The notes under the pieces were generated by a model that saw nothing but the letters and a program-made list of their open reading frames with translations, was not told the origin of the DNA and did not search any database. From IMG/VR virus record IMGVR_UViG_3300046507_000888, positions 1 to 57,339 of that record: a stretch of DNA of 57,339 nucleotides, one strand, 5' to 3'. This DNA comes from a virus. Position numbers and translations under genes: made by a program. Of the stretch, positions 11,718 to 17,031 are shown in pieces (positions within the stretch are counted from its first letter, which is position 1; each line of letters begins with the position of its first letter).

Positions 11718-12063
11718 TTTGATGCTCCGTGCTTGATCGGTTGTTTTCCCAATGCACCCGTCACCAGGTGCATCAGTGAAACTCTTCCGCTGATCCTTCG
11801 GCGCTACTGGCGCGGTACAGATCGATTCAAATTGTTCTTCCAGCCGCGGGCCTTTCGGCTTGTTCTCCCGCTGGATAACTGTTCTTGGTGCTTTACGCTG
11901 CGCCCCCGGGTCAGTTGCCAACCCTCTGAACCGTTTAGGCCGGTTCATCGCTGCCTTCGAATCTGGGCCGGTGGTGATCCGGCAAAGGTGAAGCTGTGCG
12001 ACTAAAGAGCGGTTCAGGCTGTGAGGCCCTGTCGAGTCCCTGTTGGGTGGCTCGATGGAGTGA
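11718..12063 (-). other. Untranslated leader of the early-left operon
   Basis: About 345 bases between PL and the first left gene without a convincing gene. It contains a perfect 7-bp hairpin with an 8-base loop at 11752-11773 (ATGCACC/GGTGCAT), about 35 bases ahead of the first start codon. This could be an antitermination or translational control element, but no canonical boxA was identified. Confidence 0.4.
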
Positions 12064-12092
12064 ATTTAAGCAAGCTGAAATAATCATGTCAA
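12064..12092 (-). promoter_or_regulatory. PL early-left promoter
   Basis: Reading leftward, -35 TTGACA (complement of 12087-12092), a 17-base spacer and -10 TTAAAT (complement of 12064-12069). The -35 is a perfect consensus. Two of the three operators overlap the promoter, so CI or Cro would block polymerase binding. Confidence 0.8.
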
Positions 12093-12124
12093 GCATGCTG
12101 AATAAATAAATTCAGAATGCTGAA
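12066..12124. promoter_or_regulatory. OL: three CI/Cro operators
   Basis: Three 14-bp near-palindromes of form TTNAGCATGCTGAA lie at 12066-12079 (TTAAGCAAGCTGAA), 12089-12102 (TCAAGCATGCTGAA) and 12111-12124 (TTCAGAATGCTGAA), spaced 23 and 22 bases start to start. The same sequence recurs at PR, identifying these as operators rather than chance repeats. Confidence 0.8.
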
Positions 12125-12137
12125 ATTTGTAGGCGTG

Positions 12138-12161
12138 AAAAAGCCCGCTCAATGGCGGGCT
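12138..12161 (-). terminator. Terminator after the DUF1654-like gene
   Basis: A perfect 7-bp stem (12142-12148 with 12155-12161), six-base loop and, on the minus strand, a run of T. It follows the stop of the SOS gene by a few bases and insulates it from PL. Confidence 0.8.
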
Positions 12162-12165
12162 CATC

Positions 12166-12417
12166 TCACGCTTCGCAATACTGTCGCCATCTGATTCTGA
12201 TGGCGCTACCCTCTAGGGCCTCGACTATCACGCCGGCCGTTTCGCTAATCTCATCAATAAGCTGCTGCCAGCCCTCGGCGGTTTCATGCTCAAGTCTTGA
12301 AACCGTAATGGCCTGTACCTTTTGTACGCTTGGAGATGCGATGAGGGCTTGTAAACGACGGCCCGCCAGTTCGTAAGACGTCCGGTTTTTTGTTGTAGGA
12401 GTAGGGGAAGGGTGCAT
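12166..12417 (-). CDS. DUF1654-like SOS-regulated protein
   Basis: An 83-residue protein resembling the Pseudomonas DUF1654 family: SYELAGRRLQALIASPSVQ, then RLEHETAEGWQQLIDEISETAGV and a C-terminal AIRIRW. Function is not established. The ATG at 12417 follows AAAGGAAAA; a perfect LexA-type box lies 18 bases upstream, so it should be induced by DNA damage. It is a self-contained cassette with its own promoter and terminator between PL and the immunity genes, suggesting it acts at or soon after prophage induction. Confidence 0.75.
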   Translation of the reverse strand: MHPSPTPTTKNRTSYELAGRRLQALIASPSVQKVQAITVSRLEHETAEGWQQLIDEISETAGVIVEALEGSAIRIRWRQYCEA

Positions 12418-12434
12418 GCGGTTTTCCTTTCGGT

Positions 12435-12454
12435 TACTGTATAAAAACACAGTA
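12435..12454. promoter_or_regulatory. LexA (SOS) box
   Basis: TACTGTATAAAAACACAGTA fits the LexA consensus CTGT-N8-ACAG exactly, with an AT-rich centre and flanking TA/TA symmetry. A -10-like TATACA on the minus strand lies inside it, so LexA would block transcription of the gene starting at 12417. Confidence 0.85.
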
Positions 12455-12646
12455 TTTGGCCTTCGAGGATTTCGCAATACACCTTAGGTCTGGTTGGAGA
12501 TATGCGTGGACACGACCACTTCATTTCAGCGGACAAAAAAAGCCAACCAAGTGACGTACTGATGTGCCATCACAGTGGGATACTGTCTACGCCCCGCACG
12601 CGCAGCCAGCGTTGAGACGGATGGCATACCTAAGGATTAGATAGCT

Positions 12647-13105
12647 ATGAGTGATGGCGTAGAGTTTTTTAAAGGCCACGGTGGCAGCATTGAATTAAGC
12701 GCCACTACGGTCACTATCAAGCGGAAGGGGGTGCTCGCTTTCGTAACTCAAGGGTTGAAGGGCGATAAAGAGATTCCAATCTCACTCCTCACCGCGCTTC
12801 AATTCAAGTCGGCCGGAATGTTCACCAACGGATACATTCAGTTTTCATTCCAGGGCGGAAGTGAAGCTAAAGGAGGCGCTTTCCAAGCTGCGTCCGATGA
12901 GAACACGGTGCTGTTCACGAAGGATCAACAGCCAGCGTTTGAAGCGCTGCGCGGTAAGCTTCAGCCACTCATTGGCCAGGTTTCCGCCCCCGTTGTGCAG
13001 AAATCGTATCTAGATGATCTGGAGCGTTTAGCTTCGCTCCGGTCTAGCGGCATCCTCACTGAAGAAGAGTTTCAAGCCAAGAAAAAGCAGATTCTTGGTC
13101 TGTGA
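12647..13105 (+). CDS. DUF4429/PH-like protein with SHOCT domain
   Basis: A 152-residue protein with an N-terminal PH-like domain (residues 1-110: GSIELSATTVTIKRKGVLAF, KEIPISLLTALQFKSAG) and a C-terminal SHOCT motif (YLDDLERLASLRSSGILTEEEFQAKKKQILGL region, about 120-152). SHOCT modules usually sit at protein termini and help oligomerisation. It is plus strand, between the SOS gene and a lipoprotein gene in the immunity region, so expression in the lysogen is plausible. Confidence 0.75.
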   Translation: MSDGVEFFKGHGGSIELSATTVTIKRKGVLAFVTQGLKGDKEIPISLLTALQFKSAGMFTNGYIQFSFQGGSEAKGGAFQAASDENTVLFTKDQQPAFEALRGKLQPLIGQVSAPVVQKSYLDDLERLASLRSSGILTEEEFQAKKKQILGL

Positions 13106-13145
13106 GCTGATAGTGGAAGCTCGGCGCATAGCGCACGCCAATACC

Positions 13146-13172
13146 AAAAGGCCCGCTTATGGCGGGCTTGTT
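13146..13172 (+). terminator. Terminator after the SHOCT gene
   Basis: A 6-bp GC stem (13151-13156 with 13162-13167) with a five-base loop followed by a short, imperfect T-rich run. Confidence 0.55.
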
Positions 13173-13284
13173 GATCCCGCACTCTACCACTCGTGGCACA
13201 CTATTTAGATAGCCAAAAGCCATCATTTCTCTACAATCGTGACTGGTCGAATTCCGGCCAGTTGCGACTTGGAAAGGATGAGTA

Positions 13285-13713
13285 ATGATTCTTCGGAAAG
13301 CGATAGCGGTAGCGTCCGTACTTGTTGCGCTGGGAGGCTGTGCGAGCATCGTCAGCGACAGCAAGCCAGAGGTGGGGGTGTACAGCACACCCACGGCCGC
13401 AAAGTACGAGATTGTGAATAGCCGAGGGATGGTTGTTGCTCACGGCGTTACGCCCGGAAAGGTACTTCTTGAAAGCGGGAGAGGGTACTTCAAGGGAGAA
13501 GACTACAAGGTCACCTTCCGGAAAGAAGGGTATTCAGATAGCACTGTGCCGCTTAAGACCACCGTTAACGGCTGGTACTGGGGCAATATCTTGATAGGCG
13601 GGCTCATAGGTATGCTCATCGTCGATCCGCTCACAGGTGCGATGTACACGCTGCCAGATGATGTAACTGGAAACACTTCACTGCTCGCGTCGCAGGAGGC
13701 TGCGGTAAAGTAG
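13285..13713 (+). CDS. Outer-membrane-type lipoprotein (accessory)
   Basis: A 142-residue lipoprotein with signal sequence and lipobox LGGC (Cys at residue 19), SIVSDSKPEVGVYSTPTAAKYEIVN, then a beta-rich PEGA-like region (GVTPGKVLLESGRGYFKGEDYKVTF) and a hydrophobic Gly-rich segment (NILIGGLIGMLIVDPLTGAMY). Such lipoproteins occur in bacterial genomes as well as prophages. Located in the immunity region, it could alter the cell surface of the lysogen or block superinfection; this is inference. Confidence 0.7.
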   Translation: MILRKAIAVASVLVALGGCASIVSDSKPEVGVYSTPTAAKYEIVNSRGMVVAHGVTPGKVLLESGRGYFKGEDYKVTFRKEGYSDSTVPLKTTVNGWYWGNILIGGLIGMLIVDPLTGAMYTLPDDVTGNTSLLASQEAAVK

Positions 13714-13740
13714 AGGGTAGGCCCCGCCGCCTGCGTCTAA

Positions 13741-14262
13741 CTAGGTTTCATCATCGGCTAGAGACCAGCCTGCAACATATAGCGCATGGTGACGTGCAGC
13801 ATCATCAAGTGGAGCTGTCTGCGCGTCGTACGTCACTTGATCTCTTCTGGTTTTCGGCGAAGGGGGAAGGATGCTGTCTAATCCAAGCCCTATTGAGGGA
13901 GTCGAATTTCTCTTCCGAGCAATCTCTTGTGGTGAGTCAGAGAAAGATATTGTCGGCTTCAGTCTGCCTCGACGGTTAGCTTTGCGACGCTGCTTCCTAG
14001 CCAGGGCAATCGATACAAAGGGGGCTGCTCCTCCAAATATTTTCTTCTGATAATAATCGATATGCGCGATCAGCCTTTCGGCTGCTCGCTCAAACTCCTC
14101 GCCCTCTTTGATTTCTCGCATGACGCTGTAAAGGAGCGCTAGTTGCGCCCATTCTCGGCTATCAATATCCCTAGGCTTTTGAATATCGAGGCGCCGTAGA
14201 AATTTCAATAGATTCGAAGGTAAAGTCATTTTCGCCAGATCTGTCGGCAAAGGTAGAGTCAT
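13741..14262 (-). CDS. Phage protein of the repressor-side region, unknown function
   Basis: A 173-residue protein with an N-terminal helical half (LLKFLRRLDIQKPRDIDSREWAQLALL) and a basic low-complexity middle (RKQRRKANRRGRLK). No family recognised. It is the most distal of the minus-strand genes running left from the repressor. Confidence 0.5.
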   Translation of the reverse strand: MTLPLPTDLAKMTLPSNLLKFLRRLDIQKPRDIDSREWAQLALLYSVMREIKEGEEFERAAERLIAHIDYYQKKIFGGAAPFVSIALARKQRRKANRRGRLKPTISFSDSPQEIARKRNSTPSIGLGLDSILPPSPKTRRDQVTYDAQTAPLDDAARHHALYVAGWSLADDET

Positions 14263-14298
14263 TTTCCGTCTCCTAGGAGATATATCTTCAGGGCGCCA

Positions 14299-14535
14299 TT
14301 AGTCTTCCGGATCCTCATCTTCCCCCGGCTTCCACCTGGCCATCAGATCAGCCATCAACTCAGCAATGGGCTCACTGTTGCCTGCCAGCACCTCTAAATG
14401 CTTGTTGACTCTGTCGTGCGTATTTGAAGAGCCGCGCTGATCGATCCAGATACTGATTTCTTCGATAGCAGACCCAAGGGCCATGACATTCTGGTTCATG
14501 CGGTAGAGCAGGGCGGGGGTGGGATCGTCTGGCAT
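14299..14535 (-). CDS. Small acidic phage protein, unknown function
   Basis: A 78-residue helical acidic protein (YRMNQNVMALGSAIEEISIWID, ending GEDEDPED). A clear SD-like GGAGG lies upstream of the ATG. Function unknown. Confidence 0.55.
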   Translation of the reverse strand: MPDDPTPALLYRMNQNVMALGSAIEEISIWIDQRGSSNTHDRVNKHLEVLAGNSEPIAELMADLMARWKPGEDEDPED

Positions 14536-14577
14536 GACGTTTCCTCCATCAAAAAGGAAAGCGTAACAGCGATGGTA

Positions 14578-14600
14578 AACAAAAAGCCCGGCTCTAGGCT
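14578..14600 (-). terminator. Possible terminator after the 14626 gene
   Basis: On the minus strand a short stem of the form AGCC...GGGCT is followed by five T. The stem is short and imperfect. Confidence 0.35.
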
Positions 14601-14625
14601 TGGCCTTAAGTCACCTCAGCCCGAC

Positions 14626-14952
14626 TCACCAGCGGAACGTTTTTTCCGCGGCACCGGCGAGGAGCGCAAATGCGATTATCAGCGCGAACATTCCAAAGAA
14701 CAGTGCAATTGAAGCGCCCCAAGACCAGTGCCAAGCATAGTGCGCACCCAAGACTCCGATGACGCAGTTCAGGAGGTTTATTCGGAGCATGAACACCAGA
14801 AACGTGGCGATCAGGGAGCTAAAGAACCAATGCCAATCCAGCCAGTATTGAATGCCACCGTAAATCGCTAAAATCTGGGCAATGCCCAAAGCGATATTGA
14901 CGGGGAGAAGAAGAAATCCTATTCCAGTCAAAACGTTTTCTGATGCGCTCAT
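14626..14952 (-). CDS. Small inner-membrane protein
   Basis: A 108-residue protein with about four membrane segments: LTGIGFLLLPVNIALGIAQI, FFSSLIATFLVFMLRINLL, CVIGVLGAHYAWHWSW and ALFFGMFALIIAFALLAGA. The ATG at 14952 has GGAGG 6 bases upstream. It lies in the repressor-side minus-strand set, so it may be expressed in the lysogen; superinfection exclusion is one possibility. Confidence 0.6.
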   Translation of the reverse strand: MSASENVLTGIGFLLLPVNIALGIAQILAIYGGIQYWLDWHWFFSSLIATFLVFMLRINLLNCVIGVLGAHYAWHWSWGASIALFFGMFALIIAFALLAGAAEKTFRW

Positions 14953-15018
14953 TGTAGCCTCCATGTATGCGAGCCATCATTTTAGCATCGCGAACGGCTG
15001 ACGGAGAGGCGGATACGG

Positions 15019-15045
15019 AAAGCCCGACGCTCGGCCGGGCTTTTT
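15019..15045. terminator. Bidirectional hairpin terminator
   Basis: A perfect 8-bp stem AAAGCCCG/CGGGCTTT (15019-15026 with 15036-15043) with a nine-base loop and T-runs on both strands. Confidence 0.7.
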
Positions 15046-15107
15046 ACGCACGTGGCCAAATCCCTTTGGCTGACTGCAATGTGCTTGTAGGTGTGACAAT
15101 CATTTAC

Positions 15108-15132
15108 ATAAAAGCCCGGCGCAGTGCCGGAC
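15108..15132 (-). terminator. Terminator of the repressor transcript
   Basis: On the minus strand a stem CCGGC/GCCGG with a five-base loop is followed by GCTTTTAT, five bases after the stop of the gene co-transcribed with the repressor. Confidence 0.7.
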
Positions 15133-15136
15133 TAAT

Positions 15137-15550
15137 CTACTTGCGCAGCTGAAACGAAATGACGTTATTAGGTATTTCTTCGTTAGGCAGGAAATACGAT
15201 TCCGGCTTCGCTGACATTTCCGCAAGGCGACCGGCGGGTAGCGGGATTAGTCTGGAAATTTCATCTTTGGAAAACTTTACCTTGGCTTCCAAAAAGTCGA
15301 TCATATCGCTTATGAGTTTGCTAGTTTCCTTGGGCGTCTCTTTATCAAGGGGCTCGCTTTTCCGACTTTCGCTAATCCTGATCCGATCCAGAGTCAGGTT
15401 CAATGTATTCAAGGCATCGAGCAGGGCTTTCGCCTCGGTCTCTCGACCATCTCCCCAGAGAAGTTCGGCCATTTTATTCAGGGCTTGGATAGATCTTTCA
15501 ATGTCTACAGCGGTCGCTGTAGTGGTGTCTGTCGGCCGTTTCTTCGGCAT
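15137..15550 (-). CDS. Gene co-transcribed with the repressor, unknown function
   Basis: A 137-residue protein starting 2 bases after the repressor stop, so it is translated from the same message. The N-terminal part is helical (DIERSIQALNKMAELLWGDGRETEAKALLDALNTLNLTLDRI region), the middle charged. Genes in this position in lambdoid phages (rex-like location) often act in the lysogen, for example in exclusion, but no similarity to Rex is visible. Confidence 0.6.
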   Translation of the reverse strand: MPKKRPTDTTTATAVDIERSIQALNKMAELLWGDGRETEAKALLDALNTLNLTLDRIRISESRKSEPLDKETPKETSKLISDMIDFLEAKVKFSKDEISRLIPLPAGRLAEMSAKPESYFLPNEEIPNNVISFQLRK

Positions 15551-15552
15551 AG

Positions 15553-16206
15553 TCAGAACTTCTGCAGCGCTCGCACCACGACTCCTACGATTCGGCAGCG
15601 CTCGTCGAACACTCCAATTGGGTAACTTGGGTTCAGCGGCTTTAAGAACAGTCGCCCGCCATCGCTCACGAGCTTCTTGAAAGTCGCCTCATTACTCTCT
15701 GGAAGTTTGGCGATCACCAGCTTGCCAGGCGCAGCCTCGGCTTCAGTATCCACGAGGATCAGCGTGCCTTCGGTAATGCTCTGTCCGACAGGCGAGGTCA
15801 TCGAGTCGCCTTTGACCTCGAGCCAGAACGCGGGGCCCTTCGAGTTGTATTCGGAAAACTCGTAGCGATCCGAAATTCCAGCGGGGTAGGGCTCCACCGC
15901 TTCAGACCAAGCGCCCGCAGACACCCAGCTAATCACCGGATAGCGGAAAGATAGAGCTGGCTGAGAAGTTGTGGAGACGTTCGGCTCCGAAGCTTCCTTC
16001 TCATCCCCCTCACCAATTGCAAGCCACTCAGCCCTAAAGCCCGTGGCTTTCGCCAAGGCGTAGAGATTCTCTGGCCGCAGGCTTTTGCTCTCGCCAGTAA
16101 TCCATTGAGTAACAGCAGAATTTGCGACGGCACAAAGCGACGCAATTTCGCCCTTCTTTTTCCCGCTGAGCTGTATAGCCCGGGCAATACGTTCGTGTCT
16201 TTCCAT
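15553..16206 (-). CDS. cI: CI-type prophage repressor (HTH + S24 peptidase)
   Basis: A 217-residue LexA/CI-type repressor. The N-terminal XRE HTH (residues 3-62) includes KKGEIASLCAVANSAVTQWITGES. The C-terminal S24 autoprotease has the cleavage pair A97-G98 in WVSAGAW, the nucleophile S135 in VKGDSM and the general base K177 in TFKKL. RecA-stimulated self-cleavage is expected under SOS. It is transcribed leftward from a promoter in the OR region, next to operators at 16217-16245 that should mediate autoregulation. Confidence 0.93.
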   Translation of the reverse strand: MERHERIARAIQLSGKKKGEIASLCAVANSAVTQWITGESKSLRPENLYALAKATGFRAEWLAIGEGDEKEASEPNVSTTSQPALSFRYPVISWVSAGAWSEAVEPYPAGISDRYEFSEYNSKGPAFWLEVKGDSMTSPVGQSITEGTLILVDTEAEAAPGKLVIAKLPESNEATFKKLVSDGGRLFLKPLNPSYPIGVFDERCRIVGVVVRALQKF

Positions 16207-16216
16207 GAACCCAATA

Positions 16217-16286
16217 TTAAGTTAACTGAATTTAAGCATGCAGTAGGCAGAAAACGCCGTTGACTCGATAAGTTAAGCATGCTGAA
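16217..16286. promoter_or_regulatory. OR: CI/Cro operators
   Basis: Three 14-bp sites matching those at PL: 16217-16230 (TTAAGTTAACTGAA, core changed), 16232-16245 (TTAAGCATGCAGTA, right half changed) and 16273-16286 (TTAAGCATGCTGAA, best match). The first two abut and lie just upstream of the repressor start; the third lies in the PR promoter. Confidence 0.78.
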
Positions 16287-16288
16287 AT
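16260..16288 (+). promoter_or_regulatory. PR early-right promoter
   Basis: TTGACT (16260-16265), 17-base spacer, TGAAAT (16283-16288), followed by cro at 16316. The best-conserved operator covers the spacer and the -10. Confidence 0.75.
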
Positions 16289-16315
16289 TGCGTCAGAGTC
16301 GAACGAGGATGCGCA

Positions 16316-16495
16316 ATGAATACGCATGAAGTCGCCGAATTCTTCGGCAGCAAGACAAAGCTGGCACTGGCTCTGGGCATCCGCCCAAGCGCCGTGACCA
16401 TGTGGGGAGGAACCATCCCTGAATCCCGGCAATACCAGATCCAGGTGCTTTCCAAGGGCAAGTTTAAGGCCGCAAAGAAAGTCCAGGCCGCCTAA
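16316..16495 (+). CDS. cro: Cro-type repressor
   Basis: A 59-residue protein, divergent from the repressor gene and immediately downstream of PR. It has the Cro arrangement: VAEFFGSKTKLALALGIRPSAVTMWGG forms the HTH, followed by a short strand region (IPESRQYQIQVLSKGKF) and a basic Lys-rich tail. GAGGA lies 8 bases upstream of the ATG. It should bind the same operators as CI and favour lytic development. Confidence 0.85.
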   Translation: MNTHEVAEFFGSKTKLALALGIRPSAVTMWGGTIPESRQYQIQVLSKGKFKAAKKVQAA

Positions 16496-16563
16496 GCGAC
16501 ATCCATGTCCGCCGTTCCATTGAAGCCATCTTGACCGCAACTGACCCAAGGAAAAACTAGGAC

Positions 16564-17031
16564 ATGAAAACGCCCGTACTAGAGACCCGCCGCCAAGTAA
16601 TGGCAGCCGTGTCCAACGCTTTCCCTGGTGGGATGGATTGCGCTGCTGCTCGCCTTGGCATCAAGGACAAGCGTCTGGAAAACCAGATCTACGAGACAGC
16701 AGGCTGCAAGCCGTTAAGCGATGCCGAGATATTCGTGCTGGAAAGCGAAACGAAGACTGAGCATCTGCCGGACTACATCTGCGCCATGTATGGCGGTGTG
16801 TTCGTGAAGATCCCGGAGGCGGGGGAGTTGGACAACGTGGATCTGTATCAGCGTTCTCTCACGGCATCCGTGCAGCGCGGTGCACTTGACCAGATGGTGG
16901 CCTCCGCGCTGGAGGACGGCGAGATCGACTCGAACGAAGCAAAGAAGATCCGCGCCCTGCATGCCAGGTATCTGTCGGCGAGCCTTGAGGCTATCGGGGC
17001 GGTAATTGAGTTGCATAGAGCCCGCGCATAA
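16564..17031 (+). CDS. CII/YmfL-family phage regulator
   Basis: A 155-residue protein with an N-terminal HTH typical of the phage CII-like/YmfL regulators: TRRQVMAAVSNAFPGGMDCAAARLGIKDKRLENQIYET, followed by PLSDAEIFVLESET. The C-terminal half is helical. It occupies the cII position, right after cro. A role as transcriptional regulator of the lysis-lysogeny choice is inferred from position and fold. Confidence 0.75.
   Translation: MKTPVLETRRQVMAAVSNAFPGGMDCAAARLGIKDKRLENQIYETAGCKPLSDAEIFVLESETKTEHLPDYICAMYGGVFVKIPEAGELDNVDLYQRSLTASVQRGALDQMVASALEDGEIDSNEAKKIRALHARYLSASLEAIGAVIELHRARA

Follow-up and report, generated by a model that had tools for sequence, protein, structure and literature searches.

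A probable lambdoid OL/OR immunity region in a Pseudomonas phage, with an operator type that appears to follow the DNA-binding domain of CI

We have analysed the immunity region of the complete virus record IMGVR_UViG_3300046507_000888 (57,339 bases, hereafter the window). In this region, a gene for a cI-type repressor lies divergent from cro, which is followed by a CII-like regulator gene and, downstream of the latter, by O-like and DnaC-like replication genes. The same type of operator is repeated at the leftward (PL) and rightward (PR) early promoters flanking cI, as a left (OL) and a right (OR) operator set (Table 1). Such an organization is compatible with a lambdoid immunity region of a Pseudomonas phage, P22-like and with paired OL and OR sets, a reading to which we assign a probability of about 0.93. 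A lambda-type OL/OR pair had been proposed in an earlier note on this DNA; the proposal holds, with CI, Cro and CII-like genes where such a region needs them and operator sets that are conserved in relatives. The arrangement itself is ordinary for lambdoid phages, and the parts worth following are the wider operator family and a chromosomal unit that carries the same type of operator.

Table 1. Features of the immunity region in window coordinates (PRM, the cI promoter; aa, amino acids)
Feature	Position	Strand	Description
OL1	12066..12079		TTAAGCAAGCTGAA, over PL -10; family-profile score 26.5
OL2	12089..12102		TCAAGCATGCTGAA, overlaps PL -35; profile score 22.1
OL3	12111..12124		TTCAGAATGCTGAA, upstream of PL; profile score 25.5
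OR3	16217..16230		TTAAGTTAACTGAA, over possible PRM -10; profile score 19.4
OR2 by homology	16239..16252		TTCTGCCTACTGCA on minus strand, decayed in window phage
Second PR site of the earlier note	16232..16245		Overlaps OR2 in other register; one half-site only; inside strongly conserved block; profile score 10.2
OR1	16273..16286		TTAAGCATGCTGAA, over PR -10; profile score 27.0
PL promoter	12063..12092	-	TTGACA 12087-12092, 18-bp spacer, TAAATT 12063-12068, leftward
PR promoter	16260..16288	+	TTGACT 16260-16265, 17-bp spacer, TGAAAT 16283-16288; read from sequence
Possible PRM -10	16214..16219	-	TAATAT, overlaps OR3; predicted from sequence
Possible terminator, DUF1654-PL gap	12142..12161	-	7-bp stem then TTTTC; read from sequence, unlisted by scan
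cI repressor	15553..16206	-	217 aa, helix-turn-helix + S24 peptidase
cro	16316..16495	+	59 aa, Pfam P22_Cro
CII-like regulator	16564..17031	+	155 aa; PHROG 101, Phage_CP76, YmfL family
DUF1654 gene (PHROG 2707) adjoining OL	12166..12477	-	Longest open reading frame; internal ATG likelier start

The earlier note had placed six 14-bp palindromes in the region, three at each early promoter, and all six are present in the window letters where it put them. Relative to TTNAGCATGCTNAA, the site at 16273 has no mismatch, those at 12066, 12089 and 12111 have one each and that at 16232 has two. The site at 16217 (TTAAGTTAACTGAA) has four, and was thus missed with up to three mismatches allowed; its half-sites in the frame TTNAG-N4-CTNAA are perfect. 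A whole-window search with up to two mismatches, as suggested in the same note, gave eight matches, five of them in the two operator regions and three elsewhere (1284, 31284 and 36612). With up to three mismatches, the window contained 36 matches against 24.1 +/- 4.7 expected, and 1 of 100 shuffles also reached 36. Since the raw count at this threshold is weak evidence, the case is based on clustering and conservation. Perfect TTNAG-N4-CTNAA sites occurred four times in the window, all in the two operator regions and as two pairs within 60 bp. In 500 Markov simulations their mean number was 0.61 and no simulation had a pair within 60 bp, so that chance clustering of the operators was rejected. 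We also derived a family profile from 88 sequences, each distinct within its site class (OL1, OL2, OL3, OR1 or OR3). Its five highest scores in the window, from 27.0 down to 19.4, were those of 16273, 12066, 12111, 12089 and 16217, a result favoured by the presence of these five sites, and not of 16232, among the training sites. The next positions were 36612 (14.3), 28579 (10.3) and 16232 (10.2), the last being at background level. The six-site observation is confirmed with one correction, namely that 16232 is not a well-scoring site.

Conservation was examined in the best 80 of 496 viral CI relatives (73-92% identical), which together with the window make 81 loci. An OL triplet, defined by at most three mismatches over 24 fixed positions, was found in 70 of the 81, with one mismatch in 67 of these and with a 22/23-bp spacing in 64. 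In 60 simulated windows, no triplet had fewer than six mismatches, compared with one in the real window. Across the 70 loci, OL lay 1.06-5.95 kb from the cI start. CTTGAC was present at OL2 in 69 of the 70. This agrees with the earlier note, which had two PL sites on a perfect TTGACA -35 and the -10; OL2 overlaps the former and OL1 the TAAATT hexamer. On the right, where the search for sites was confined to fixed ranges upstream of cI, OR1 and OR3 were 56 or 57 bp apart in all 96 OR loci, and TTGAC was found within the PR interval in 72. The 23/22-base spacing claimed for PL was thus borne out, whereas the close pair claimed for PR (16217 and 16232) was not, the relatives placing OR2 22 bp, and not 15 bp, from OR3.

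The presence of the operator was then compared with the two domains of CI across 80 viral and 80 genome loci (L002-L161), 159 of the 160 having enough upstream DNA. A locus was scored as having an operator if the 130 bp upstream of cI contained at least one site with no more than one mismatch. With an N-terminal domain (N-domain) at least 65% identical to that of the window CI, 110 of 111 loci had the operator upstream of cI, the exception being L101. With an N-domain below 50% and a C-terminal domain (C-domain) 61-90% identical (L114-L161), it was found in none of 48, the CI start having been estimated from partial alignments in some of them. Other palindromes, for example of the ATAAGC type, were seen upstream of cI in some of these 48 loci. 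The reverse search, with the OL DNA pattern alone, retrieved 77 viral contigs, of which 68 had a DUF1654 match and 55 a CI relative; 20 of the other 22 were already known to carry CI from the CI relative search. Seven OL-pattern contigs encoded CI proteins with C-domains only 20-53% and N-domains 66-84% identical to those of the window, and with (N/P)SA(V/I)TQW helices. We also considered an operator change accompanying helix changes from ANSAV to APSAV, SPSAV or SASAV; too few loci carry such helices. Taken together, these comparisons supported that the operator tracks the CI N-domain across natural domain swaps and, therefore, that the immunity group should be readable from sequence, in line with what the earlier note had claimed for immunity specificity. 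The operator set would make the immunity group predictable for the window phage and for many environmental Pseudomonas prophages, the same CI N-domain going with the same operator type. Natural swaps occur both ways, with the N-domain replaced next to a C-domain up to 90% identical or the C-domain replaced next to a similar N-domain, and suggest a way in which phages exchange immunity specificities.

The arrangement at PR allowed more than one reading. In the register 22 bp from OR3, a site with at most one mismatch was present in 33 of the 96 OR loci, none of them in the clade of the window phage. In the drawing of the earlier note, PR has three CI sites, of which 16217 and 16232 lie close together and would be bound cooperatively. 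The 16232 site does lie inside a block, CTGCATRCTTAAATTCAG, that is conserved in both clades across the 96 loci, and 94 of them retain CTTAA, the right half of the site. Nevertheless, the 15-bp register had at least two mismatches in all 96 loci and its profile score equals background, whereas in the 33 loci the site in the 22-bp register combines a left half without mismatch with at most one mismatch overall, and this register fits the OL spacing; besides, two dimers centred 15 bp apart would probably be in steric conflict. Hence we consider this drawing unlikely, and 16232 was rejected on homology as the primary OR2 and kept as a rival. Because the relatives have their OR2 at 22 bp, the close pair was probably mis-registered. 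The likeliest history is that OR2 ancestrally lay at 16239-16252 and that its distal half has since decayed in the clade of the window phage; an alternative to decay is that this clade never had OR2. If the clade's OR2 lacks one half-site, CI might use OR1 and OR3 only, with PR repressed and cI auto-repressed, not auto-activated. The distal half of OR2 is indeed not conserved among the 53 loci of clade A, CTACTGCATGCTTAA being nearly invariant, but 89 of 96 loci retain CTGCA as the right half, which would still permit cooperative half-site binding. We regard the use of two sites only as possible, at clearly less than even odds.

Several observations weigh against a lambdoid OL/OR region. The loci are related and the collections may partially overlap, so that the counts are not independent. 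The OL triplet was missing from 11 of the 81 loci; in ten of them the available sequence stops 1.0-3.8 kb past the cI start, and OL may lie beyond the sequence ends. One locus without the triplet, L076, has two sites 44 bp apart, and in two of the 77 OL-pattern contigs (L230 and L259) the CI searches found no CI. A promoter scan of 11900-16700 gave 2 promoter-like sites compared with 3.3 in shuffles, PR not being among them, and TTGAC was absent from the PR interval in 24 of the 96 OR loci. As the scan did no better than shuffles, the case for PL is based on conservation and not on the scan. Regarding OR, the lambda layout has three well-formed sites with OR2 set to activate PRM; here, OR1 and OR3 are well formed and OR2 is degenerate, in the window phage and in its clade. 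A cooperative OR1-OR2 pair, with OR2-bound CI activating PRM, may therefore be weak or absent. Moreover, OR1 and OR2 would be about 34 bp apart, a spacing that is shorter in lambda.

The proteins encoded at the locus were compatible with a lambdoid switch. The window CI matched Pfam S24 (E 6.2e-26) and combines the helix-turn-helix and S24 regions with a predicted Ala-Gly cleavage site and Ser/Lys dyad, which we take to be represented in the translation by VSAGAW, KGDSMTS and TFKKL. Its C-domain matched solved lambda CI chains (best E 5.9e-28), and the Cro protein scored 66.8 bits for P22_Cro against a cut-off of 30.2. At residue 26 of the window CI, an alanine replaces the turn glycine that precedes the recognition helix (LCAVANSAV, compared with GVANSAV in most relatives).

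From the computed sites, their conservation and their dependence on the CI N-domain, we infer a switch in which repression, self-cleavage, Cro binding, promoter use and cI autoregulation are all predicted steps. CI dimers would bind sites of the TTMAG-CATG-CTKAA type. On the left, CI at OL1 would sit over the -10 of the early promoter, at OL2 over its -35 and at OL3 on its upstream flank. On the right, CI at OR1 would sit over the -10 of the early promoter and at OR3 over the cI promoter, the OR2 between them being weak. With CI present, both early promoters would be off, resulting in lysogeny and immunity, and DNA damage would lead to CI self-cleavage and free the promoters. Cro, whose helix PSAVTMW resembles the NSAVTQW of CI, probably reads the same sites and would favour lytic growth. 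The cI message may be leaderless if TAATAT is used as the PRM -10. The earlier note suggested cooperative binding and possible DNA looping; what bears on this is the homology of the CI C-domain with its lambda counterpart, which makes dimer and higher-order contacts plausible. According to PMC3317979, the repressor of phage 933W apparently cannot bind neighbouring sites cooperatively; therefore, cooperativity is not to be assumed for the window CI.

The stretch between cI and OL (12166-15550 in the window) is length-variable among the window and its relatives, and is apparently a cargo region. The 137-aa gene following cI (15137-15550) weakly matched profiles of the RmrA defence protein near their end (positions 306-378 of 400; best E 5.1e-7), and the other seven proteins scanned in this stretch had no match to defence-gene profiles.

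The same type of operator was also found in chromosomes of plant-associated Pseudomonas. A unit composed of cI, DUF1654, an operator/promoter and a holin gene occupies one site in 16 genomes (L095 and L097-L111; about 1.6 kb in L108:7923-9559), mostly of the P. syringae group. The CI homologue of the unit lacks an OR array; a single operator with no more than one mismatch lies upstream in 15 of 16, and an operator is found in 16 of 16 at a PL-like promoter between DUF1654 and the holin gene, the -35-side operator being kept in only some loci. The L108 holin is PHROG 2359. All 16 genomes, including L108 as the query source, matched the L108 holin, DUF1654, penicillin acylase, SEC-C and 187-aa proteins, and tblastn gave no Cro match at the unit loci. 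The unit CI carries the recognition helix GVANSAVTQW, as in most of the phages, and its gene is under purifying selection, with a median ratio of nonsynonymous to synonymous rates (dN/dS) of 0.044 (range 0.006-0.077, 119 of 120 pairs). These loci also bear on whether the sites serve mainly Cro or another regulator, and not CI. The similar recognition helix of Cro speaks for such a role, and Cro probably shares the sites; yet the operators come and go with the CI N-domain and persist beside the chromosomal cI where no Cro was matched, which makes a role mainly outside CI very improbable.

The unit is flanked by SEC-C and LEA_2 genes. With the L108 LEA_2 protein as the query, matches were obtained in 24 of 38 genomes (G001 and relatives), and SEC-C adjoined in all 23 other than G001, with no CI, holin or DUF1654 match in the approximately 3.5 kb available at these 23 loci. 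Since LEA_2 and SEC-C adjoin there without the unit, the latter appears to have been inserted at a fixed position. Among 298 genomes drawn from the genus, seven had a CI match with E <=1e-95, five with the unit and two with cro beside cI. As regards a possible exclusion of phages with the same operator type by the chromosomal CI, each of 24 genomes chosen from the matches had exactly one CI match of at least 68% identity, a figure confounded by species group. We tentatively propose, as a somewhat doubtful reading, that the unit is a domesticated phage switch of P. syringae-group and related chromosomes, in which a self-cleavable CI would repress itself and the holin through the phage-family operator; the host repressor might then confer inborn immunity to phages with this operator, with DNA damage firing the holin. 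If true, the operator code would link temperate phages, host immunity and programmed lysis, and repressors resident in host genomes could block infection by phages of the operator group.

A CI-like repressor beside a holin is also found in the PrtR-holin tailocin loci of Pseudomonas and in the alp lysis system. Passages of PMC2647930 and PMC7815802 describe conserved prtR and holin genes at tailocin loci, and alp is described as a DNA-damage-induced death pathway in PMC7969949. The unit differs from the PrtR-holin loci in lying between LEA_2 and SEC-C genes and not at mutS-cinA. A PrtR/PrtN pair was rejected for L108, in which the divergent neighbour of cI encodes the SEC-C protein, and no tail genes, as a tailocin would have, were found among the selection of L108 open reading frames scanned. 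Separately, L094:2617-9127 contains cI with a full OR array beside open reading frames that by eye, with no family scan, resemble tail genes, near the same acylase gene as the unit and with a holin match; this locus is possibly a tailocin or a prophage remnant. Neither the window operator nor the chromosomal unit was described in the titles and abstract starts of the open-access literature matches listed.

Among known phages, lambda has OL and OR sets that flank cI, each overlapping an early promoter, and the window shares this layout and a homologous CI C-domain. It differs from lambda in the operator sequence, the N-domain and the decayed OR2, and its OL1 and OR1 are 4.2 kb apart. Phages 21 and 434 were also among the CI matches. 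P22 C2 is 46% identical to the window CI over residues 17-213, the window Cro matches P22_Cro, and TTAAGATGACTTAA, just before c2, shares the TTNAG-N4-CTNAA frame. In contrast, the N-domains of the two repressors are 28% identical and the recognition helix is GVSNVAISQWE in P22 and AVANSAVTQWI in the window, suggestive of a related operator frame read by a distinct helix. A further difference is that the sites of the family carry A or C about equally at position 3 of the half-site. In the P. aeruginosa phages BUCT566 and Flu_PA14_4, the CI N-domains are 72% identical to that of the window and have the helix DVAPSAVTQWI, whereas the CI C-domains are only 22% identical. Upstream of cI, these phages carry two operators that share the frame and lie at similar distances.

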